DNA of 10,486 bases, taken from a bacterium. Its GTDB lineage: Bacteria; Blakebacterota; Blakebacteria; Blakebacterales; Blakebacteraceae. Numbering within the stretch: the stretch's first letter is position 1; every line of letters starts with the position of its first letter. Both the position numbers and the translations under genes were made by a program. Under the pieces are notes generated by a model that saw nothing but the letters and a program-made list of their open reading frames with translations, did no database searches and was not told the origin of the DNA. The stretch lies in the NCBI GenBank assembly GCA_025774205.1, contig JALGWK010000057.1, positions 1 to 10,486 of the forward strand. Reading direction: 5' to 3'. This document shows positions 1 to 10,486 of this stretch, one piece after another.

Positions 1-16
1 TCATATGTCCTGTCCG

Positions 17-2251
17 CTACTCGGCCTGCAGGGACCAGAGATAACGGTACCGATAGTAGTTATTCATGATGGTGAGGACGAAGGTCCTCGTCTCTGGATA
101 ACCGATCGACTCGATAAAAGTTTCCGGCCTGTTGTCGGTCAGACTCCGTTCCCACCTCCGGACACTGGTGGGTCCGCCGTTGTAGGCGGCCAGCGCTTTC
201 TCGGTCGAACCGCCGAAACGGTCAACCAGGTGGGCCAGGTAGGGGATGCCGAGACTGAGATTGATCTCGGGGTTGTAGAGCTCCTCGGTCTCGAAGGTCG
301 GCAGCCGAAGCCGACGACGCCATTCTTCGGCTGTCTCGGGCATCAACTGCATCAGACCACGGGCACCGACATAGGAGCGGGCGTCGGGCAGGAAGGCACT
401 CTCCTGCTTGATGAGGGCCAGGATGAGGTAGGGATCGAGTTCGTGCTGTCGGGCTACCGGCTCAATGAGGTCCACGAAGTAGAGCGGGAAACGCAGGTTC
501 AGGTACCGGGGATCGTCCTCATCCCACTGACCGATGGCAAGCAGGCGCTCCCCCAGCCGGATGGCGGCGGCGAAGGCCCGCCCCTCGACGGCGAGGGTCC
601 AGAGATCGTAGAGACGGTCGCGGGCGAAGGAGCGGCCGCTGATGGCGTGCAGCAGCTGGATCTCACCCGCCCGGGTGAGTCCGGTGCGGAGCAGCACGAT
701 CGCCGCCTCGACGGATGTGTCAACCCACCCGGGTACCGCCAGGGGACCGTAGGCTATCTCCTGCGGTTTCACCGGTGGTTCAGGCAGGGGAAGGTCGAGT
801 TCTCCCAGGGCCCGTACTCCGTAATAGGTATAGGGATAGCGCTCCCCGGCCCGCGTGAGATAACCGGCGGCCAGGGTGGAATCTCCGGCGGCTTCCGCCA
901 TCCGGGCCGCCCAGAACCAGCCCTGGGCCTTCTCCTGGGGATAGTAGATACCCCGCCCCAGTTCCACGAACCAGACCCGGGCCTCCTCCAGCTCTCCGGC
1001 GTCACGCGCGCCTTCGCCAAGGCTGAAGAGGATCCGGGCATTCTCCCAGTAGGTCGGGTGGGACTCTATCAGGCGGGCATAGTACGCACCCGCCGCCTCG
1101 CGGTCGACGCTGATGAGACGGTCGCCGGCCAGCTTGAGTGCCCGGGGGGTCCAGCGGCTCGAAGGATACCGGTCGGCGAAGGCGGCCATCGCCTCCGCCC
1201 CGGTCCTCCGGGGCGATGAAGCGGAGATGGCCAGCGCGGCGTAGTAGCCGGCCGAGCTCCGATAGCGGGACGATGTATCTTCTGATTCGGTGAGGACCCG
1301 GGCGGCCTCTGCCCACGAACGCATCCGGTAGAGGCTCATCCCGAGACGGTAGCGGGCTTCATCTCTCTCGGCCGCCGCCGGGGCCCGGTCGAGCGCCTGC
1401 CGGAAAGCATCAGCGGCGCCACTCCAGTTGGCGAGCCCGAAGAGGATCTGCCCCGTCTCCAGCAGTTCACCTGCATTCAGCGAACTCGTGTCGTCGAGCA
1501 GGGCTACCGCCGACCGTCCTCTCGCCTCGTCGCTGCCCGGCAGTTCGAGGGCCAGGCGTCGCAGCCTCCCGGCCTCTTCATGGTCCTCACTCTGGACCAG
1601 TTCCGCCAGCCGGGCAGCGTACCCGGCGGCGTTGCCGATCCCGAGGGCGACGATCCGCTCGATCAGGGCCCGTTCCCGGTCCTCATCCCCTGAGGCAACG
1701 GCCCGCTCGAGCCTGAACTCGAGTACTTCCTCGATGACCGGAGGACTGACCCGGCCGGTTGAGGCAGGAGAGCCGACGTCAGGCGAAGAGAGTGCTGCCA
1801 GCAGGGAGTCGGCCCGGTCGGGCTCCCCCGCTGCAAGGAGGAGACGGGCCCGTTCAAACCGGACCCAGCCCAGCAGCGGCTCCGTTAACGTTTCCTCACC
1901 CCGCTCCAGGGCCGTCGCGGCCGAAGCCGGTCGACCGAGGTTCCGATACGCCATTCCCAGTCCGATCCAGGCCTCACTCTCCAGGGCTTCCTCACTCGCG
2001 GCGCTCGAACGAAGGAACGTCACCGCCATCGCGGCGTCGCCATCCCGCAGGGCCCGCAGGCCCGCTTCCAGGGCCTGGTTCTCTCCGGCCTCCTGCGGAA
2101 TCGGGATCGGAGCTGTCGCAGAGAGGAAGACAGGTGCCGCCGAGGGTGTCTCGACAAGGGCCAGTACGCAAACCACCACAGCGGCAGCCACGAGAGGGAG
2201 TGGCCCTCCACCACGATTGTGGTGTAAACGTATAAGGTCAGGTGTATCCAT
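17..2251 (-). CDS. Soluble lytic murein transglycosylase (Slt70-like)
   Basis: Predicted periplasmic enzyme that cleaves the MurNAc-GlcNAc bond of peptidoglycan to give 1,6-anhydro ends. Counted from ATG at 2251 (744 residues): a short basic start, a hydrophobic stretch at about 18-34 (signal peptide or anchor), then about 550 residues of Ala/Leu-rich helical repeats like the Slt70 superhelix, then a C-terminal SLT domain. The SLT domain shows the catalytic Glu in IKQES (about residue 617), GLMQLMP (about 632-638), NPEINLSLGIPYL and AYNGG (about 689-693). An in-frame TTG at 2290 would add 13 residues but has no visible ribosome binding site and would leave no gap to the divergent DUF72 gene, so the ATG is preferred; its own ribosome site is weak. 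The gene ends with TAG at 17-19. The domain assignment is firm; the exact start is not. Confidence 0.93.
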   Translation of the reverse strand: MDTPDLIRLHHNRGGGPLPLVAAAVVVCVLALVETPSAAPVFLSATAPIPIPQEAGENQALEAGLRALRDGDAAMAVTFLRSSAASEEALESEAWIGLGMAYRNLGRPASAATALERGEETLTEPLLGWVRFERARLLLAAGEPDRADSLLAALSSPDVGSPASTGRVSPPVIEEVLEFRLERAVASGDEDRERALIERIVALGIGNAAGYAARLAELVQSEDHEEAGRLRRLALELPGSDEARGRSAVALLDDTSSLNAGELLETGQILFGLANWSGAADAFRQALDRAPAAAERDEARYRLGMSLYRMRSWAEAARVLTESEDTSSRYRSSAGYYAALAISASSPRRTGAEAMAAFADRYPSSRWTPRALKLAGDRLISVDREAAGAYYARLIESHPTYWENARILFSLGEGARDAGELEEARVWFVELGRGIYYPQEKAQGWFWAARMAEAAGDSTLAAGYLTRAGERYPYTYYGVRALGELDLPLPEPPVKPQEIAYGPLAVPGWVDTSVEAAIVLLRTGLTRAGEIQLLHAISGRSFARDRLYDLWTLAVEGRAFAAAIRLGERLLAIGQWDEDDPRYLNLRFPLYFVDLIEPVARQHELDPYLILALIKQESAFLPDARSYVGARGLMQLMPETAEEWRRRLRLPTFETEELYNPEINLSLGIPYLAHLVDRFGGSTEKALAAYNGGPTSVRRWERSLTDNRPETFIESIGYPETRTFVLTIMNNYYRYRYLWSLQAE

Positions 2252-2293
2252 GAGCTTTGAGAACCTACGGGAACCAAAGAGGGACGTCAAGTG

Positions 2294-3145
2294 ATGGACA
2301 CAGATATCCGTGTCGGGCCCGCGGGCTGGTCCTATGACGACTGGAAGGGTCCGGTCTATCCACCCGAGGCCGGTTCAACCTTCGATCGGCTGAAGGATTA
2401 TTTCGACACCATCGAGATCAACAGCACCTTCTACCGTCCCCAGAAACCGTCAGTGGTGGAGAAGTGGATCGCGCGCGTGGAGGAGAACCGACGCTTCCTC
2501 TTCACGGTCAAACTGTGGCGTCACTTTACCCACGACGCGAAGACCTTCGACGAGGAAGCCGTCCGGAGTGTCCGGGAGATGCTCAACCCGCTGCGGGAGT
2601 CGGAGCGACTGGGAGCGGTCCTCTGCCAGTTCCCCTGGTCGTTCCGGGGGAACCGTGAGAATTCCCGCTATCTGCGCGATCTCTTCGAGATCTTCAGCGA
2701 TTTCCCCCTCGCGATCGAGGTCCGTCATGCCTCCTGGGGCACCCCCGCTGTCTACGACTGGCTGCGGGAGAAGGGGGTGGCCTTCTGCAACATCGATCAG
2801 CCGGTGATCGGGGCGAGTCTCGACCGGACCGAGGAGGCGACCTCGTCGATCGGCTACTTCCGACTCCACGGTCAGAACATCGAGAACTGGTTCAGGGAGG
2901 ACGCCGACGTGGCGGAACGGTACGACTATCTCTACGACGCGGAGGAACTGGAACCGTGGGCCGAGGCGATCGAGCGTCTGGCTCCTCAGTTGAGCCAGCT
3001 TTTTATCATCTTCAACAACCACTATCAGGGACAGGCCCCGGCCAATGCCCTCGAGCTCCTGGCCCGCCTGACCGGCGGGAAGGTATCTGTCCCCCCACCC
3101 CTCCTGAACGCTTACCCGCGGCTGGAGAGGATAGCCCGGACCTGA
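2294..3145 (+). CDS. DUF72 (YecE-like) family protein
   Basis: A cytoplasmic TIM-barrel-like protein of the DUF72/YecE family, whose biochemical role is not established. The family signatures are all present, numbered from ATG 2294: GWSYDDWKG near residue 11, IEINSTFYRP at about 40-49, a VLCQFPWSF strand near 109, IEVRH at about 141-145, YFRLHG at about 188-193, and NNHYQGQAPANA at about 241-252. Length (283-284 residues) is normal for the family. A GTG directly before the ATG (2291) is an equally possible start: AGAGGG at 2278-2283 lies 7 nt from the GTG and 10 nt from the ATG. It is divergent from the lytic transglycosylase gene, so its promoter must lie partly inside that gene's 5' end. 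No neighbour suggests a function. Confidence 0.92.
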   Translation: MDTDIRVGPAGWSYDDWKGPVYPPEAGSTFDRLKDYFDTIEINSTFYRPQKPSVVEKWIARVEENRRFLFTVKLWRHFTHDAKTFDEEAVRSVREMLNPLRESERLGAVLCQFPWSFRGNRENSRYLRDLFEIFSDFPLAIEVRHASWGTPAVYDWLREKGVAFCNIDQPVIGASLDRTEEATSSIGYFRLHGQNIENWFREDADVAERYDYLYDAEELEPWAEAIERLAPQLSQLFIIFNNHYQGQAPANALELLARLTGGKVSVPPPLLNAYPRLERIART

Positions 3146-3170
3146 GCGCCAGCGGAACGCGCCCGACCTC

Positions 3171-3186
3171 TGATCCATTGATCCAT
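3171..3186. repeat. 8-bp perfect tandem repeat
   Basis: TGATCCAT occurs twice head to tail (3171-3178 and 3179-3186) just downstream of the DUF72 gene, at the edge of the AT-richer patch. It could be a slippage product, chance, or the footprint of an excised element with 8-bp target duplication. No inverted-repeat ends are seen around it. Confidence 0.5.
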
Positions 3187-3314
3187 CCGGTAAACATGAC
3201 CACCAGGCGGAGTCGTCCTAATAATGATATGAACGACTGGCGTGAACCTGCACAGGGAGTCATGGACCATGCGTTCACGGTCATTATTCAGGCTGGGACC
3301 AGTATTACATCCCG

Positions 3315-3743
3315 ATGCCGAAGCTCTATTTCCCGATCCTCATCTCTCCTCATGTAAGACTCGAGCCGGAGATGAGCTTCAGTGAGAACGACACGAAACA
3401 TGGTGATAACATCGGTTCCGCCAGCCAGTTCACCATCGGTGTCGGTGTGTTCCCGATCCTCAATCTCAGAGAATCATCGCTCTTCTACTATGGATTCCGT
3501 TTCGGCAGCCAGCAAATCCATGTCTTCCCGGACGATCACAGGTCTGAGTCGAAAGCGCGTGGTCTCTACCTGTCCCTCTGTATCGGCGCCGAGTATTTCC
3601 TTGATCCCCATGTCAGTCTCGGGAGCGAGCTGCAAACTCGATATTCCTCGCTGCGCATCACACATACCGATTGGGCAGATCCGTTCGAGAAACGGCAGGA
3701 AACCTCCACCATCGCCCTGATCTTCGTTCGTTTCTATCCCTGA
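3315..3743 (+). CDS. Outer-membrane beta-barrel-like protein, probably 5'-truncated remnant
   Basis: A 142-residue frame with the alternating polar/hydrophobic strands of a small outer-membrane beta-barrel: a YFPILISPHVRLEPEMSF strand pair at the start, YYGFRFGSQ in the middle, GAEYFLDPHVSLGSELQTRYS, and a last strand ending in aromatic residues (IALIFVRFYP), as in proteins folded by the BAM machinery. There is no signal peptide, and no ribosome binding site before ATG 3315. The same frame stays open upstream to a TGA at 3243-3245 without any ATG, GTG or TTG, and the codons just before the ATG (GWDQYYIP) look like a continuing barrel strand. I infer that the true start has been lost, making this a remnant. 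Base composition is clearly less GC-rich than in the flanking genes. It converges with dnaE2, 26 bp apart. Its specific function is unknown. Confidence 0.55.
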   Translation: MPKLYFPILISPHVRLEPEMSFSENDTKHGDNIGSASQFTIGVGVFPILNLRESSLFYYGFRFGSQQIHVFPDDHRSESKARGLYLSLCIGAEYFLDPHVSLGSELQTRYSSLRITHTDWADPFEKRQETSTIALIFVRFYP

Positions 3744-3769
3744 TACCGGATCGAACTGGAAAGCGGCTC

Positions 3770-6700
3770 TCACCCCACCGAGGCGGCGCGGCGGCCGGTG
3801 GCGGTCTGCTTCCCCGCCTGCGGCAACTCACCCCGGCCGAGCACACTGAGCCGGTCCATCGTCAGCGAGATGGCGCCCCATTCCTCCTCGACCAGGCCGG
3901 TCAGGATGAAGGGTCCGCGGGTCATCAGCTCGGGGGCGTAGCGGCGGTACTGCCGGGGGAAGACGGTCACCTCGTAGAGGGCGGTGGTATCCTCGAAGGA
4001 GACGAACTCCATCACCTCGTTGTGGACGGTGTGGATTGGCTTGGCGGTCACCCGCCATCCCACCAGGCGCACCTGTTCTCCCACGTGGCGCTCGAGGTCC
4101 TGCCCGGAAATCAGGGGCGGGCCCCGCTCGGCCTTCACACCGGCGATCGCCTCCTCGTACAGCGTCAGGGGGTGAGCGCTCACCAGGAAATCGAGCGTCT
4201 CGGCCTCGAAGGCGAGCACGGTCGACTCGTCGTAGCCGGGTGTCTCCGGCAGAGCGGCGGGCAACGGCATCTCCAACGGGAGCATCAGGGCCGGGCCCCT
4301 CCCCGACCGGATCACTTCCCGGCGCCGCAGGAGCGCCCGCCACATCAGCTCGGGGCGGGTCCCCTCACCCAGGCCGTCAAGCGCCCCGCAGCGGATCAGG
4401 GCCTCGATCTCAGAGGGCTGCAGCGCCACCCGGTCCATCAGGTCGTCGAACCCCGTGAAGGGACCGCGCCGTTCCCGCTCATCGACGATCGCTTCGGCCC
4501 CCTCCCCACTCAGCCCTCCCACCTGGCACAACCCCACCCGCAGCCGGCCGAGCCAGCCGCCGGGCAGGTCGAGCTCGTCGGGGGTGACATCACCCAGCGC
4601 CAGTGCTTCGGCGGCGGCGGCCGCCTCCGGGCGGGTAACGCCGGTCCAGGCGATCCGGCTCTCGTTCACGTCGGGCCCCACGACCTCGAGACCGAGCCGC
4701 ATCGCCTCCGAGACGTAGGCGATGGTGGAGTAGAACCCGCCGTAGTTGGAGAGCACCGCCGCCATCAGCTCGGCCGGGTAGTGGGCTCGCAGGTAAGCCG
4801 CCTGGAAGGAGACCAGCGCGTAGGAGGCCGAATGCGCCTTGCAGAAGGAGTAGCCGCCGAACGACTCGATCTGGCGCCACAGCTCGGCGGCGATGTCGGG
4901 TTCGACCCCGCGTTCGGTGGCGCCCTCCATGAACTGCCGGCGGTAAGCGTCGATGCGCTCGAAGTCACGTTTCTTCCCCATGCTCTTCCGCAGTCCGTCG
5001 GCGTCAATGAGTGACATCCCGGCGATGTGGTGGGCCACCTTGATGACATCCTCCTGGTAGCACATCACCCCGTACGTATCGCCGAGCAGTTCCTCCATCT
5101 TCGGGTGGAGCCAGGCGAAGGGGGCACCGTTGTGGCGCTCGACGTAGGCGCCCATCATGCCGCTGGAGGAGACGCCGGGGCGGATGATGCTGGAGGCGGC
5201 CACCAGGGTCTCGAAGTCGCCGCAGTCGAGCTTGCGCAGCAGACTCCGGGTGGCCGGGCTCTCCACGTAGAAACAGCCGACCGTGTCCCCCCGGCTGATC
5301 AGCTTCCGGGTGGCGGTATCCTCGGTGGGATCGAAGTGGACGTAGGAGATGGTGTGGTCGTGGAACTCCTCCACGTCACGGCAGGCGTCCTCGATGACGG
5401 CCAGCGACCGGTTCCCGAGCAGGTCGATCTTCACCAGCCCGGCATCCTCAACCGGGTACATGTCCCACTGGGTGACCACCACCCCCTTGGCCGAGCGCTC
5501 CACCGGGACGTGATCGGTCATCCGGTCGGGGGCGATCACGATCCCCCCGGGGTGGACCCCGAGGTGCCGGGGGAAACCGTCGAGCTGCTCGGCCGCCTGG
5601 AGGACCGTGCTCCACGGCTCCTCGGTCAGGTCGATCCCCCGGAAGCGGGGATTGGAGGCGATCTTCTCCCGCAGTTCGCCGGCGTTCGAGAACCACCCCA
5701 GCCGTTTCGTGACCATGGCGATCTCCCCCTCGGGGAGGCCGTGGACCTTGGCCACCTCTCGCACCGCCGCCCGCCCCTGGAAGGTGACCTGGGTGGCGAT
5801 CATGGCCACCCGGTCCTCGCCGTACCGCTTGTAAACGTACTCCAGAACCCGGTCGCGGTCGCGCCACGAGAAGTCGATATCGACGTCGGGGGCGTCGGAG
5901 CGGCCCTGGTTGAGGAACCGCTCGAAGTAGAGGTCGTGCGCCAGGGGATCGACGTGGGTCAGCCCGAGAGCGTAGGCCACCACGCTGTTGGCGGCCGAGC
6001 CCCGACCGCAGGTGGGGATCCCCTCGGTCCGGGCGTAGTGGACGATGTCGGCCACCACCAGGAAGTAGTCGGCGTACCCCATCTCGGAGATGATCTCCAG
6101 TTCGTGATCGAGCTGGTTCCGCACGTCGTCTCGCAGGTCACCCGCGTCGGGGATCGGCATGTTCCCCGCCTCCCCCGGCTTCGGGCACCACGGATCGTCG
6201 GCGGGGTAGATCTGTCCCATCGTCTGGCGCGGTTCATCCCGGGTGCCGTAGCGCCAGACCACTCCGCGCAGGCACTGCTCCCGCAGGTGCTGCAGGGGAT
6301 CCTTCGCGACCCGTGGTCCGGCAGCTCCGAGCGGCCGGTAGCGGGGCATCAGCAGCCCCCCCAGTGGCGGCTCCCCGCGAGACCTGTCCGCCAGATCCGC
6401 GGCGTTCCCGACCGCTTCGGGGAGGTCAGCGAAGATCTCCTGCAGGTCGCTCTCCCCCTTCAGCCACGCCTGGCGGGAGGCGGTGAACTCCGCCGGTACC
6501 GCCGAGAGGGCCGCGTTGAGACCGATCGCGGTGAGCAGGTGGTGCCGCCAGTGATCCCACGGGTGGGCGAACCAGACCTCGTTGGTCGCGACCGGCCGCA
6601 CTCCCGATTCGATCAGCCGGCGCCTCTGCGCCTCCACCAGCACGCGCCGCCACGGCCGCCAGGCGCAGAGGGCGAGCGAGTGCCCCTCGGTGTCGCGTGC

Positions 6701-7207
6701 TGCAACAAGTTTGGCCAGCAGGTCGGGGTCGTCGGAGAGCACCTCCACCCCGGGGCCCCGCCCGATCAGCGCTTCCAGCAGGTCGAAATTCTTCCGGAGG
6801 TGGCGCTCGCTCACGAGCCGGCAGAGCTCGGCGTACCCCGCCTGCGATCCCGCCAGCAGTACCGCCCGGCGCGGCCTGCCCTCCCGACCACCCCGATCAC
6901 CTCCCCCTGCTCCGTTACCCTCCGCTCCCTCGATGAATCCCCGCCGGGAGCGGGAAGACTCGGTGCCGTCGGCGTCGCTGCCGGCGGGCCCTGGGAGTCG
7001 TTCCCGGAGGTCGACCCCCACGATCGGGCGGATACCCGCCCGGCCGGCTGCCTGCACGAAGGGAACCACCCCGTAGAGACCGTTGATGTCGGTGATCGCG
7101 ACCGCTTCCATCCCGAGGCGGGCGGCCTGCTCGCAGAGATCCCCGGGAGTGCTCCCCCCCCTGAGGAAGGAGTGGCTGGAACTGACGGAGAGGTGGGCGA
7201 ACCCCAT
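3770..7207 (-). CDS. dnaE2: Error-prone DNA polymerase III alpha subunit (DnaE2/ImuC type)
   Basis: C-family DNA polymerase, 1145 residues, likely used for lesion bypass after DNA damage. Domains in order: an N-terminal PHP domain (about 1-280); the palm with the catalytic triad, seen as PDVDIDF (Asp 441, 443 and 445 region) and LVKIDLLG (Asp about 595); fingers with SFGGYSFCKAHSASYALVSF (about 782-801); a helix-hairpin-helix region (about 888-950); and a C-terminal OB fold (about 1045-1130). It stops soon after the OB fold, without the long tau-binding tail of replicative DnaE1, which supports DnaE2. The PHP motifs are degenerate: HLSVSSSHS where active domains have HxH, and TDINGLYG where TDH is usual. 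A low-complexity Gly/Arg/Ser insertion (about 73-115) explains part of its length. Start ATG 7207 is 2 bp after the dinB stop, indicating coupled translation; longer in-frame starts inside dinB were set aside. An alternative is a third DnaE class rather than strict DnaE2. Confidence 0.9.
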   Translation of the reverse strand: MGFAHLSVSSSHSFLRGGSTPGDLCEQAARLGMEAVAITDINGLYGVVPFVQAAGRAGIRPIVGVDLRERLPGPAGSDADGTESSRSRRGFIEGAEGNGAGGGDRGGREGRPRRAVLLAGSQAGYAELCRLVSERHLRKNFDLLEALIGRGPGVEVLSDDPDLLAKLVAARDTEGHSLALCAWRPWRRVLVEAQRRRLIESGVRPVATNEVWFAHPWDHWRHHLLTAIGLNAALSAVPAEFTASRQAWLKGESDLQEIFADLPEAVGNAADLADRSRGEPPLGGLLMPRYRPLGAAGPRVAKDPLQHLREQCLRGVVWRYGTRDEPRQTMGQIYPADDPWCPKPGEAGNMPIPDAGDLRDDVRNQLDHELEIISEMGYADYFLVVADIVHYARTEGIPTCGRGSAANSVVAYALGLTHVDPLAHDLYFERFLNQGRSDAPDVDIDFSWRDRDRVLEYVYKRYGEDRVAMIATQVTFQGRAAVREVAKVHGLPEGEIAMVTKRLGWFSNAGELREKIASNPRFRGIDLTEEPWSTVLQAAEQLDGFPRHLGVHPGGIVIAPDRMTDHVPVERSAKGVVVTQWDMYPVEDAGLVKIDLLGNRSLAVIEDACRDVEEFHDHTISYVHFDPTEDTATRKLISRGDTVGCFYVESPATRSLLRKLDCGDFETLVAASSIIRPGVSSSGMMGAYVERHNGAPFAWLHPKMEELLGDTYGVMCYQEDVIKVAHHIAGMSLIDADGLRKSMGKKRDFERIDAYRRQFMEGATERGVEPDIAAELWRQIESFGGYSFCKAHSASYALVSFQAAYLRAHYPAELMAAVLSNYGGFYSTIAYVSEAMRLGLEVVGPDVNESRIAWTGVTRPEAAAAAEALALGDVTPDELDLPGGWLGRLRVGLCQVGGLSGEGAEAIVDERERRGPFTGFDDLMDRVALQPSEIEALIRCGALDGLGEGTRPELMWRALLRRREVIRSGRGPALMLPLEMPLPAALPETPGYDESTVLAFEAETLDFLVSAHPLTLYEEAIAGVKAERGPPLISGQDLERHVGEQVRLVGWRVTAKPIHTVHNEVMEFVSFEDTTALYEVTVFPRQYRRYAPELMTRGPFILTGLVEEEWGAISLTMDRLSVLGRGELPQAGKQTATGRRAASVG

Positions 7208-7209
7208 GG

Positions 7210-8445
7210 TCAGGCACACTCCGCCCGGCCGGGGTCCATCTGGCCCCGGGGGGCGCCGACGGCGCGCCCCGAGGAGATGGTCCAGAACCCGTGGCGATCC
7301 CGGATGCGGTCGACCGCCCCCGAGAGCGCCCGCCCCCGCTGCGCCCTGGTGGGGGTCCAGCCGTCGGCGCCGGTAAGGTCGTCGAAGAGGTCGGTCTGTT
7401 CCAGCCCGCCGGTGAGCCCGGTCAGGCGTACCCCCACCTGCCGGACCCGCACCCGCCGCTCCCAGAGCCGTTCGAGGAGATCGCGCGCGGCCGGGGCGAT
7501 ATCCCGTTCCAGGTCGGTGGGCATGGCCAGGGTGCACTGGCGGACGGAGTCGATCGAGTCGGAGAACCGCAGCCGCACCGCCACGGTCCGGGTCGCCCGG
7601 CCTGTGCGGCGGAGACGCCCCACGGCCTGCTCCACGAGTCGCCGCAGGGTGGCCTCCACGGCCCGCTGGTCGTTGGTGTCCACGTCGAAGGTCATCGAGG
7701 CCCCGGCCGAGCGGACCGGCCCCTGCGGCTGCACCGGCGAGCAGTCGACCCCCCGCGACCGCTCGCTCAGGAGACGCCCGTTCACCCCGAAGGCTATTTC
7801 GAGATAGCGGGTGTGCACTCCGGCCACCTCGCCGCAGAGACGCAGGTTGAAATCGAGGAGGCGCCGTTCGGTCTTCTCCCCTACCCCGGGGAGGCGGCGG
7901 GCACGCAGGGGACGCAGGAAAGCGGACTCCCAGCCGGGACTCACGTCGCAGAACCCGGCCGGCTTCACGCACCCGGCGGCCACCTTGCTCAGCAGCTTGT
8001 TGCTTCCCAGACCGACCGAGGCGCTCAGCCGCAGGCGGGTGTGGACCTCCCGCTGGATGCGGCTCCCCACGTCGGCGGGGATGCCGAAGAGCCGGGTGGT
8101 GCCGGTCAGGTCGAGGTAGGCCTCATCCTGGCTGGCCGGTTCGATCACCGGACTGTAATCGCGCAATATGCCGAAGAGCGCCTGCGAGGCGCGCATATAG
8201 AGATCCGGATTGCCGGGCAGGACCACCGCCTCAGGGCAGAGCTTCCGCGCCCTTTTGAGCGCCATGCCCGAGGTCACCCCCGACTGGCGGGCCTCGTAGG
8301 AGCAGGAGGCCACCGCCGTCCGGGGCGCGTAGACCCCGCCGAACGCCACGATCACCGGGCGCTCCCTGAGGGCGGGATCGGCCACCTGCTCCACCCCCAC
8401 GTAGAAGGCGTCGAGGTCGAGGTGCACGATCGCCCGCTCACTCAT
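7210..8445 (-). CDS. dinB: Y-family DNA polymerase IV (DinB)
   Basis: Translesion DNA polymerase of 411 residues. The palm carries the metal-binding carboxylates: Asp10 in HLDLDAFY, and Asp107-Glu108 in SQDEAYLDL; Tyr15 sits at the steric-gate position. RLPGVGEKT (about 185-192) is the helix-hairpin-helix of the thumb, followed by a little-finger domain (about 240-345). QTDLF at about 350-354 fits the bacterial beta-clamp-binding consensus. All catalytic residues are kept, so this is a true polymerase and not the inactive ImuB that usually partners DnaE2. The start ATG 8445 follows the DUF429 gene by 63 bp and has no strong ribosome binding site. The stop lies 2 bp before dnaE2, so the two polymerases are almost certainly co-expressed. 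SOS control through the nearby LexA is inferred from context. Confidence 0.93.
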   Translation of the reverse strand: MSERAIVHLDLDAFYVGVEQVADPALRERPVIVAFGGVYAPRTAVASCSYEARQSGVTSGMALKRARKLCPEAVVLPGNPDLYMRASQALFGILRDYSPVIEPASQDEAYLDLTGTTRLFGIPADVGSRIQREVHTRLRLSASVGLGSNKLLSKVAAGCVKPAGFCDVSPGWESAFLRPLRARRLPGVGEKTERRLLDFNLRLCGEVAGVHTRYLEIAFGVNGRLLSERSRGVDCSPVQPQGPVRSAGASMTFDVDTNDQRAVEATLRRLVEQAVGRLRRTGRATRTVAVRLRFSDSIDSVRQCTLAMPTDLERDIAPAARDLLERLWERRVRVRQVGVRLTGLTGGLEQTDLFDDLTGADGWTPTRAQRGRALSGAVDRIRDRHGFWTISSGRAVGAPRGQMDPGRAECA

Positions 8446-8496
8446 GGTGCCGCACAGATTTCGAGGAGGTTGAACTACGGAACTGTCGGAAAGACC

Positions 8497-8515
8497 TGCC
8501 TGGGTCGGTCAGGCA
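8497..8515 (-). other. Hairpin over the DUF429 stop codon
   Basis: TGCCTG and CAGGCA (6-bp arms, 7-nt loop) pair across the end of the DUF429 gene, in the 63-bp gap to dinB. No run of T follows, so it is a poor intrinsic terminator. It could be an mRNA stability or attenuation element, or chance. Confidence 0.35.
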
Positions 8516-9336
8516 AGTGTCGGGTAGTAAATCCAGCCTTCGAGTGATACCCGACGCATCTCGTTCGGGCCGGGCACGGCCAGCTTCACGCCGAGGGTGC
8601 TGGCGTCGGCGCTGAAGAAGGTGCCGGTGAGGCCGCAGATGATGGCGTCGAGGGCGTCGTCGTTCTTGATCGCGTCGGCATAGAACTGGCTGTTGGTGTC
8701 GATCGGCACCAGGTTGCTCAGGTGGAGCTGGCGGAGGATATCCTTCCGCCGATCGATGGTGTTCTGGCTCTCGCCGTGGTAGAGAGTGTGGGCGATGCCC
8801 AGCTTCTCGAGGGTGACCTCCGGGGCCACCTCGAGGATCAGCGAGTGGCTCGGCTCGAGACGCTCGAAGGGGAGTACCCGGTAGGTGGGCGGCCGGTTCA
8901 CGAGCGTCTTCATGCCGTACCAGACCATGGTCATCAGGTCGGGATAGGTGTTCTGCAGGGGGCTGGTGGTCTTGAGGTAGCTGTCGGTGAGGCGGAGCGT
9001 GATGTCGTTCTTCCTCACGAAGGGGTCCCGCTTCTTCTCGATCTTCTTCATGGTCCAGTTCTGCTGGACCTCTTCGGCCATCGACAGCCACGAACGGGGG
9101 GGTTCGCCCATCAGGTTCGCGATGAAGTCCACCGGCCAGGAGAAGGGGAAATCGACTGTCAGCAGGACCCGCGAGGAAGCGTATTCCCGGAGCAGGTCGG
9201 GCAGGCCGTCCCGTCCGATCGATTCCAGCCGGATCAGGTCGAACCCCATGAAGGTCCTCCGGCCCACTGCCACCCAGGTCTTCTGCTTCCGGTCCTGGCT
9301 GCTGTAATCCACACCGATATAGTGTGTGAAGGTCAT
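8509..9336 (-). CDS. DUF429 family protein (predicted RNase H-fold nuclease)
   Basis: A 275-residue protein recognised as DUF429 by its acidic motifs, which match an RNase H-like fold: GVDYSS near residue 8 (Asp10), LLTVDFPFSWP (Asp about 62), LEVAPEV (Glu about 169), and NDDALDAIICGLTG near 225-238 (Asp about 227 and 230). The spacing of carboxylates suggests metal-dependent nucleic-acid hydrolysis, but no activity has been shown for the family as far as I know. Start ATG 9336 is chosen because CAGGAG and a stronger GGAGGAG lie just upstream (minus-strand bases about 9340-9355) and the first motif follows at once; a longer frame starting at 9399 adds 21 unlikely residues. It is the first gene of the DUF429-dinB-dnaE2 unit, which points to a role in DNA damage processing. 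That role is inferred from position only. Confidence 0.85.
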   Translation of the reverse strand: MTFTHYIGVDYSSQDRKQKTWVAVGRRTFMGFDLIRLESIGRDGLPDLLREYASSRVLLTVDFPFSWPVDFIANLMGEPPRSWLSMAEEVQQNWTMKKIEKKRDPFVRKNDITLRLTDSYLKTTSPLQNTYPDLMTMVWYGMKTLVNRPPTYRVLPFERLEPSHSLILEVAPEVTLEKLGIAHTLYHGESQNTIDRRKDILRQLHLSNLVPIDTNSQFYADAIKNDDALDAIICGLTGTFFSADASTLGVKLAVPGPNEMRRVSLEGWIYYPTLA

Positions 9337-9402
9337 ATACTCCTGCTCCTCCTGGTGAACTCTCCGGCCTCTTCCAGTCAAGCCCCGCACGGCTGACACC
9401 CA

Positions 9403-9431
9403 TATATAATGAACGGGACGACATCTTCCAA
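9403..9431 (-). promoter_or_regulatory. Putative sigma70 promoter for DUF429-dinB-dnaE2
   Basis: On the minus strand, TTGGAA (9426-9431) and TATATA (9403-9408) are separated by exactly 17 bp. Initiation near 9396 would give a leader of about 60 nt before the DUF429 ATG. It is the best -35/-10 pair found in the gap and lies in an AT-rich stretch. Not tested. Confidence 0.5.
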
Positions 9432-9474
9432 GATTTCCTCACACGCAACTCAAGTATCACATCAACTCGCACTG

Positions 9475-9495
9475 GTTATCACACATTGTGGTAAC
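9475..9495. promoter_or_regulatory. 21-bp imperfect palindrome, candidate operator
   Basis: Half-sites GTTA-n-CACA and TGTG-n-TAAC flank a 3-bp centre; 8 of 10 mirrored positions match. A second promoter-like pair on the minus strand, TTTAAA (9498-9503) and GATAAC (9475-9480) with 17-bp spacing and a TG at the extended -10 position, would be covered by it, the classic place for a repressor site. LexA is the natural candidate but the motif is not one of the LexA boxes I know, so the binding protein is open. Confidence 0.45.
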
Positions 9496-9509
9496 GTTTT
9501 AAATGTGTG
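9480..9509. repeat. 8-bp inverted repeat with 14-bp spacer
   Basis: CACACATT (9480-9487) and AATGTGTG (9502-9509) are exact reverse complements and overlap the right half of the 21-bp palindrome. The shared CACA/TGTG core suggests two alternative or overlapping sites for one dimeric regulator. Alternatively this is simple AT-rich coincidence. Confidence 0.4.
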
Positions 9510-9513
9510 TCCC

Positions 9514-9526
9514 ATATGGTACATAT
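9514..9526. repeat. Short inverted repeat ATATG-gta-CATAT
   Basis: Five-bp arms around a 3-bp centre, upstream of the operator candidate. It is AT-rich and short, so chance is possible; it is listed because it adds to the cluster of dyads in this gap. Confidence 0.25.
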
Positions 9527-9529
9527 CGG

Positions 9530-9544
9530 GGAGCGGACCGCTCC
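9530..9544. repeat. GC-rich 15-bp dyad downstream of the LexA-like gene
   Basis: GGAGCGG and CCGCTCC mirror each other around one base, 16 bp past the stop of the LexA-like gene. As RNA it could form a compact hairpin, but no T-run follows in either direction, so it is at best a weak terminator; an operator is the alternative. Confidence 0.35.
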
Positions 9545-9560
9545 TGACGGTGACTCCGCC

Positions 9561-9947
9561 TCACCCTTCTCCAGCCGATCCCGAGAACGGCACCTTCCGC
9601 AGGACGCCCACAACCACCCCCGCCATCCGGACTCCTCCCCCCGATAGTCTGAGGGGGACCGCGGCGCCCGAAGTGAGCAGGCACCAGGTCCCCCCCTTTC
9701 TGCTGGTCCCCAGCAGAAACCCGTTCCCCTCGAGCTGGACCACGATCAGGTCCCCCTCGCGGGGTGGAGATCCCTCCAGCGCGACCAGGGTGTCCCCGCG
9801 CCTCAGCGGCGGCCTGCCTTCGGCCGCCTCGACCGGGCCTGTCACCCGGAAGAAGTTGGCGGCGGGGTCATCGGCCAGTTCGTGCTGGAGACCTTCCGCC
9901 TCCCGATCGTCCAGAGGGAGCAGCTGCCCCCCGTTCCGTTGCGCCAC
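9561..9947 (-). CDS. Stand-alone LexA C-terminal-like (S24 fold) protein without catalytic residues
   Basis: A 128-residue protein starting at GTG 9947, with a good ribosome site (GGGGGAG about 8 nt upstream) and an in-frame TGA shortly upstream that excludes a longer form. From about residue 32 it can be laid alongside the LexA encoded next door: FFRVTG, then LRRGDTLVALEG, then REGDLIVVQL, and finally VRMAGVVVGVLRK against LexA's LRIQGVVIGVLRR. The catalytic serine motif (GNSM in LexA) is replaced by GPVE, and the lysine of TLKRY by Gly in the matching strand (GFLLGTS). There is no helix-turn-helix and no Ala-Gly cleavage site. It therefore looks like a pseudoprotease or dimerisation module. 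Possible roles, all inferred: a LexA partner or modulator, or an accessory subunit of the polymerases, as UmuD' is for UmuC. It follows lexA by 176 bp on the same strand. Confidence 0.7.
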   Translation of the reverse strand: MAQRNGGQLLPLDDREAEGLQHELADDPAANFFRVTGPVEAAEGRPPLRRGDTLVALEGSPPREGDLIVVQLEGNGFLLGTSRKGGTWCLLTSGAAVPLRLSGGGVRMAGVVVGVLRKVPFSGSAGEG

Positions 9948-9976
9948 GTCTGTCTCCCCCTGCGTCAGTCGCCTCT

Positions 9977-10010
9977 CCCTGAAAGGCGAATAAAAGGCGA
10001 TAATTCAGGG
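9977..10010. promoter_or_regulatory. Nested repeats upstream of the LexA-like gene
   Basis: CCCTGAA (9977-9983) and TTCAGGG (10004-10010) form a 7-bp inverted repeat enclosing two direct copies of AAAGGCGA (9982-9989 and 9993-10000) spaced 11 bp, about one helical turn. Placed 30-63 bp before the GTG, this could be a control site. I see no convincing -35/-10 pair around it. Confidence 0.35.
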
Positions 10011-10011
10011 C

Positions 10012-10029
10012 AAAAAAAGAGCCCCTCTC
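10012..10029 (-). terminator. Possible weak intrinsic terminator of lexA
   Basis: On the minus strand a short stem (AGAG / CTCT around GGG, extendable by a G-T pair) runs directly into seven T. It lies about 95 nt past the lexA stop. The stem is short, so partial read-through into the LexA-like gene is likely. Confidence 0.35.
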
Positions 10030-10123
10030 GTGCCGGTCCTACCTCCCTTCCCTGGTTCCTCTGCTACTCAGACTCTGTTCGGGCTCGCGCGTGTCATGCC
10101 ACGGTTGTTGCGTGACCGGGCAC

Positions 10124-10486
10124 TCAGACAACGCGTCGTCGATAGCGACGCAGAACCCCGATCACGACCCCCTGGATGCGGAGGTCCTCCTCTGGAACCA
10201 TCATGGGGTGCAGGCTGTCGTTGGCCGGCTGGAGCCGGATGATCTTCCCCTCCCGGAAGTAGCGCTTCAGCGTTACCTCCCCGCCGGGGAGCATCGCGAT
10301 CACGGTCTCGCCGTTCTCGGCCGTGTTCCGTTCCTCGACCACCACGTGGTCGCCGTTGTGGATCCCCTCGTCGATCATCGAGTTCCCCTGCACCTCCAGG
10401 GCGAAGGTCCGCCGGCGCCCCAGCATGTCCTCGGGGATCATGATCTCCTCGGCGTCCTGGATCGCCTCGATCGGCAGCCCGGCGGC
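10124..10486 (-). CDS. lexA: LexA repressor, C-terminal protease domain (5' part outside window)
   Basis: The last 120 residues of the SOS repressor, cut by the window edge. The first visible residues are AAGLPIEA, the Ala-Gly autocleavage site followed by the usual Pro-hydrophobic segment. The Ser of the Ser-Lys dyad is in VQGNSMIDEGI (visible residue 36) and the Lys in EVTLKRYF (visible residue 74), the expected spacing. The domain closes with LQPANDSLHP and LRIQGVVIGVLRR, typical of LexA. RecA-stimulated self-cleavage would release target genes, plausibly including the downstream polymerase operon. The N-terminal winged-helix DNA-binding domain is not in the window, so operator specificity cannot be read here. 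The gene ends with TGA at 10124-10126. Confidence 0.95.
   Translation of the reverse strand, partial: AAGLPIEAIQDAEEIMIPEDMLGRRRTFALEVQGNSMIDEGIHNGDHVVVEERNTAENGETVIAMLPGGEVTLKRYFREGKIIRLQPANDSLHPMMVPEEDLRIQGVVIGVLRRYRRRVV

Follow-up and report, generated by a model that had tools for sequence, protein, structure and literature searches.

A 128-amino-acid open reading frame beside lexA (hereafter X) is a stand-alone member of the LexA/UmuD (S24, LexA C-domain) fold superfamily that has lost both catalytic residues and begins about where UmuD is cleaved. The reading that we favor, tentatively and with a little less than even confidence, is that X is a gene-encoded, non-proteolytic counterpart of UmuD', permanently in the “cleaved” state, that serves as an accessory subunit for the DinB and/or DnaE2 polymerases encoded downstream. 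The window that we analyzed comprises 10,486 nucleotides (positions 1-10486) and is the whole of one contig (G000:C174).

The gene and its neighborhood

The features that bear on X are as follows.

10124..10486, minus strand: lexA, cut by the contig end (TIGR00498 above cut-off; Peptidase_S24)
9954..9961, minus strand: ribosome-binding-site-like AGGGGGAG, six bases 5' of the GTG start of X, read from the sequence
9561..9947, minus strand: X, 128 aa, GTG start; S24-fold protein (LexA/UmuD C-domain), stand-alone, dyad-less
9475..9495, no strand assigned: palindrome GTTATCACACATTGTGGTAAC with perfect arms, between X and the DUF429 gene, upstream of DUF429-dinB-dnaE2
8509..9336, minus strand: DUF429 gene (PF04250), its start taken by eye as the ATG behind AGGAGGAGCAGGAGTAT
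7210..8445, minus strand: dinB-type Y-family polymerase (PF00817, PF11799; DNA polymerase IV model above cut-off)
3770..7177, minus strand: dnaE2-type C-family polymerase (PF07733; TIGR00594 above cut-off; PDVDIDF motif)

When all six frames were compared, codon likelihood was above zero solely in the frame of X, at 0.11 per codon vs 0.25-0.42 in the neighboring genes, and the GC3 of X was 0.81 (neighbors, about 0.9). An antisense ORF (9409-9993, plus strand) had a codon likelihood below zero and was not considered further.

Family matches and gene order placed X directly next to lexA in a block that also holds both polymerase genes, as the first-pass annotation had described; the order on the one strand is lexA, X, DUF429, dinB, dnaE2. 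The C-terminal domain of LexA retains its AAG cleavage region, the GNSM serine and the TLK lysine, as read from its residues. By eye, the catalytic motifs of both polymerases look intact, DinB carrying DLD and SQDE active-site motifs and a QTDLF clamp motif, and the DinB C-terminus includes a stretch that resembles the RecA N-terminus. Beyond dnaE2 lie a convergent DUF72 gene and then a lytic transglycosylase.

The palindrome GTTATCACACATTGTGGTAAC is a possible operator, judged from its sequence; no second perfect copy was found in the genome, and we rejected it as a genome-wide SOS box, there being just one close site. We also rejected a terminator 3' of lexA, where a hairpin with a T-run was seen by eye and folding was no better than that of shuffled sequences.

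Genes of the DUF72 type recurred near lexA, Y-family polymerase and dnaE2 genes at three loci (L174:3312-9087, L025:5693-11099 and, in the window, 2291-3145). On a Desulfosarcina ovata plasmid (L174), the order is lexA, DUF72, polY, dnaE2, and in the bacterium WY4.bin59 (L025), a DUF72-like gene sits beside dinB-dnaE2, both without X. This recurrence suggests that DUF72 is part of the mutasome cassette.

The fold of X and its lost protease features

No Pfam or NCBIfam family covered X (NCBIfam, none at E ≤ 1), the curated UmuD cut-off of NF007621 was not reached, and PHROGs gave a weak UmuD-like match (E = 0.02). X was 23% identical to the adjacent LexA (E = 6e-4, single comparison). A LexA profile gave it 16.8 bits (best of 5000 shuffles, 7.6) and a UmuD profile 10.5 bits (best of 5000 shuffles, 5.0), both profiles being built without sequences picked by similarity to X; they supersede an earlier LexA profile, whose 26.3 bits were biased because some of its sequences had been retrieved through their resemblance to X. 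When unrelated genomes were searched with X, the matches were LexA and UmuD proteins.

Structure prediction pointed the same way. AlphaFold on the X sequence alone gave a low-confidence model (pLDDT 45), and the seven best PDB matches of this model were C-domains of lambda repressor and LexA, all at E = 0.06 or higher. With an alignment of 57 LexA and UmuD rows, pLDDT rose to 83 and the model matched LexA (Z 10.0), UmuD and UmuD' (9.2) and lambda CI (9.2), with unrelated rows well lower; this model could be biased towards its alignment, whereas the alignment-free one could not. The resemblance to the C-terminal half of LexA, first noticed by eye, was thus borne out by identity, by profile scores above those of all shuffles and by fold comparison.

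The protease features, which the first-pass annotation had described as missing, are indeed gone. In the alignment, the column of the catalytic serine (Ser in >90% of aligned sequences) holds Val39 in X and that of the catalytic lysine holds Leu79. The position of the cleavage bond is Asn5-Gly6, four residues from the start, rather than Ala-Gly or Cys-Gly. The N-terminal winged-helix DNA-binding domain is absent from the 128 residues of X and from the frame upstream, which is open for just 19 codons before the start (147 aa in all) and so leaves no room for one.

X shares different features with its two better-known relatives. Aligned with UmuD proteins, it starts a few residues ahead of the glycine on the C-terminal side of the UmuD cleavage site, which makes it as long as processed UmuD', and it keeps the P-x-A-x-F-F-x-R-V region (PAANFF-RV in X, PAATFFVRV in UmuD). 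Its C-terminus, GVVVGVLRK, is more LexA-like, and a tree placed it weakly on the LexA side (62/44) on a very long branch of 4.1 changes per site. X resembles the LexA C-terminal domain in fold, C-terminus and adjoining gene and differs from LexA in that the DNA-binding domain, the cleavage site and the dyad are all missing. It resembles UmuD' of DNA polymerase V, and the phage protein HumD, in fold, length, start, lack of an N-terminal arm and a nearby Y-family polymerase, and differs from them in the loss of both catalytic residues, in its great divergence and in lying beside dinB and dnaE2 rather than umuC.

Distribution of X and of similar dead proteins

We found no orthologue of X in about 780 whole genomes (386 from a sample of relatives, of which 60 genomes had been searched first, and 396 from the phylum to which G064 belongs); this and the following negatives are limited by the short, divergent sequence of X and by incomplete relatives. 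X was not found in a same-genus genome (G001, 82% complete) or in two same-family genomes. It was likewise not found in 84,980 species (exact-seed search) or in viral contigs, plasmids and phages, the scans of the two large contig collections requiring exact 8-residue seeds and being insensitive. The readable matches from these orthologue searches were LexA/UmuD proteins of other genomes. A conserved placement of X, which had been put forward as a sign of selection, is thus unsupported: no orthologue appeared anywhere we searched, and no copy of the locus was detectable in the same-genus genome. The lexA C-domain and DUF429 were also not detected in these three close relatives, and G001 yielded merely distant matches to the DinB and lytic transglycosylase of the contig. 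Since contamination of the assembly is 4.8%, the contig may be of foreign origin. A UmuD family search of this genome found no UmuD-type protein beyond LexA.

The same family search across the 386 genomes returned three dead proteins of UmuD' length.

L131 (G009), 3960-4343, plus strand: 127 aa, in the order lexA, dead UmuD', UmuC-like polymerase
L164 (G046), 3518-3910, plus strand: Ser and Lys replaced, before umuC
L165 (G592), 1951-2322, plus strand: Ser and Lys replaced, before umuC

Like X, they stand alone at UmuD' length with both catalytic residues replaced and a polymerase gene adjacent, directly preceding or overlapping umuC in L164 and L165, and the L131 protein also directly follows lexA. 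Unlike X, they have clear Peptidase_S24/UmuD matches, are distinct in sequence and precede UmuC-type polymerases. In the tree, L131 stood apart from the pair L164 and L165, so the serine and lysine were lost at least two times independently. We found no relatives of the L165 protein in viral contigs. A comparable start is found in HumD of phage P1: its first residue is that of UmuD', Ser and Lys are both present, and its annotation states that it functionally complements UmuD'. HumD shows that UmuD' can be gene-encoded.

Possible roles of X

Three roles had been proposed for X at the outset: a heterodimer with LexA, a trap for activated RecA, and a UmuD'-like polymerase subunit. The last fits best, given the UmuD'-like length and N-terminus and the dead UmuD' proteins beside polymerases (L131, L164, L165). 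Also counting for it are the fold, the lost dyad, the gene order, the example of HumD and the lack of another UmuD in the genome. Against it stand the higher score with the LexA profile than with the UmuD profile, the LexA-like C-terminus, the weak placement on the LexA side of the tree, the lack of orthologues, and the DUF429 gene and 225-bp gap with the palindrome that separate X from dinB. In addition, DinB in E. coli is managed mostly by full-length UmuD, which counts against a UmuD'-like protein in this role. E. coli UmuD does bind DinB and change its fidelity (PMC3901139).

The other two proposals amount to X being a protease-dead LexA C-domain that tunes the SOS response, either by pairing with LexA, which would change how LexA is cleaved or binds DNA, or by occupying activated RecA. 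We regard this as unlikely, though it is the strongest competitor. The adjoining lexA, the LexA-profile score, slightly above that with the UmuD profile, and the C-terminus speak for it, the C-terminal region being the part that forms the dimer contact in the LexA/UmuD fold. At 23% identity to its neighbor, however, X is so divergent that a shared dimer interface is doubtful; its N-terminus and length are those of UmuD', and its dead analogues sit with polymerases.

Somewhat less probable again is that X came from duplication of lexA or umuD and is now decaying or without function. Such a duplicate would be consistent with an orphan on a branch of this length whose codon likelihood and GC3 fall below those of its neighbors. 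The frame is intact, however, the ribosome-binding site is good, and the hydrophobic core and fold are kept. When LexA or UmuD was left to decay neutrally in simulation until 24% identity remained, in a rough model with one composition and no insertions or deletions, about 12% of frames stayed open and no more than 3 in 1000 reached the LexA-profile score of X, a result that favors selection on the fold but is no substitute for orthologues.

It is highly improbable that X is a standalone ImuB-C (DUF6504), a small beta-rich partner. In Geobacter, a standalone ImuB-C lies between lexA and polY (PMC6511836, PMC3765255), and X occupies the corresponding slot, with lexA on one side and a Y-family/DnaE2 block on the other; ImuB-C is predicted to be all-beta, its fold was unknown to those authors, and in one genome (G004) a DUF6504-like protein is encoded close to lexA and dinB. 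We nevertheless rejected this identity, since a DUF6504 profile of 14 proteins gave X -1.3 bits, below shuffles, X had no Pfam DUF6504 match or other sequence similarity to ImuB-C, the Trp-rich motifs (FxWR, C-terminal Trp) are absent, and X folds as S24. What X does share with ImuB-C and YolD proteins is small size, a beta-rich make-up and the same type of operon slot (PMC3765255, PMC6511836). UmuD', YolD and ImuB-C each partner such polymerases and are each small and beta-rich, which makes a polymerase-partner role the natural reading of X.

As a UmuD'-like subunit, X would dimerize through its S24 fold, and the dimer would bind DinB and/or DnaE2, possibly the RecA filament too, and guide error-prone synthesis once DNA is damaged. 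Since X has no dyad and starts as processed UmuD' does, it would need no RecA-stimulated cleavage, and control would fall at the level of transcription.

X is plausible as a variant of a known theme, seen here in one genome. More broadly, X and its analogues may represent a class of protease-dead UmuD'-like subunits, encoded as such by their genes, in which the dyad and the N-terminal arm were lost repeatedly. X would then serve a mutasome with two active polymerases, DinB and DnaE2, and mutagenesis would escape the RecA-dependent cleavage checkpoint; we put this forward as a speculative possibility, more doubtful than the role of X itself. The classic brake on mutagenic polymerases at the post-translational level is UmuD cleavage, and we know of no UmuD-type partner described for a DinB-DnaE2 pair. 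The partners that PMC6511836 and PMC3765255 list in such cassettes are ImuB-C or YolD proteins. Proteins made in UmuD'-like form from the outset and unable to cleave would mark lineages that dropped the cleavage brake, and they would point to the S24 fold, independently of its protease, as the selected polymerase partner.
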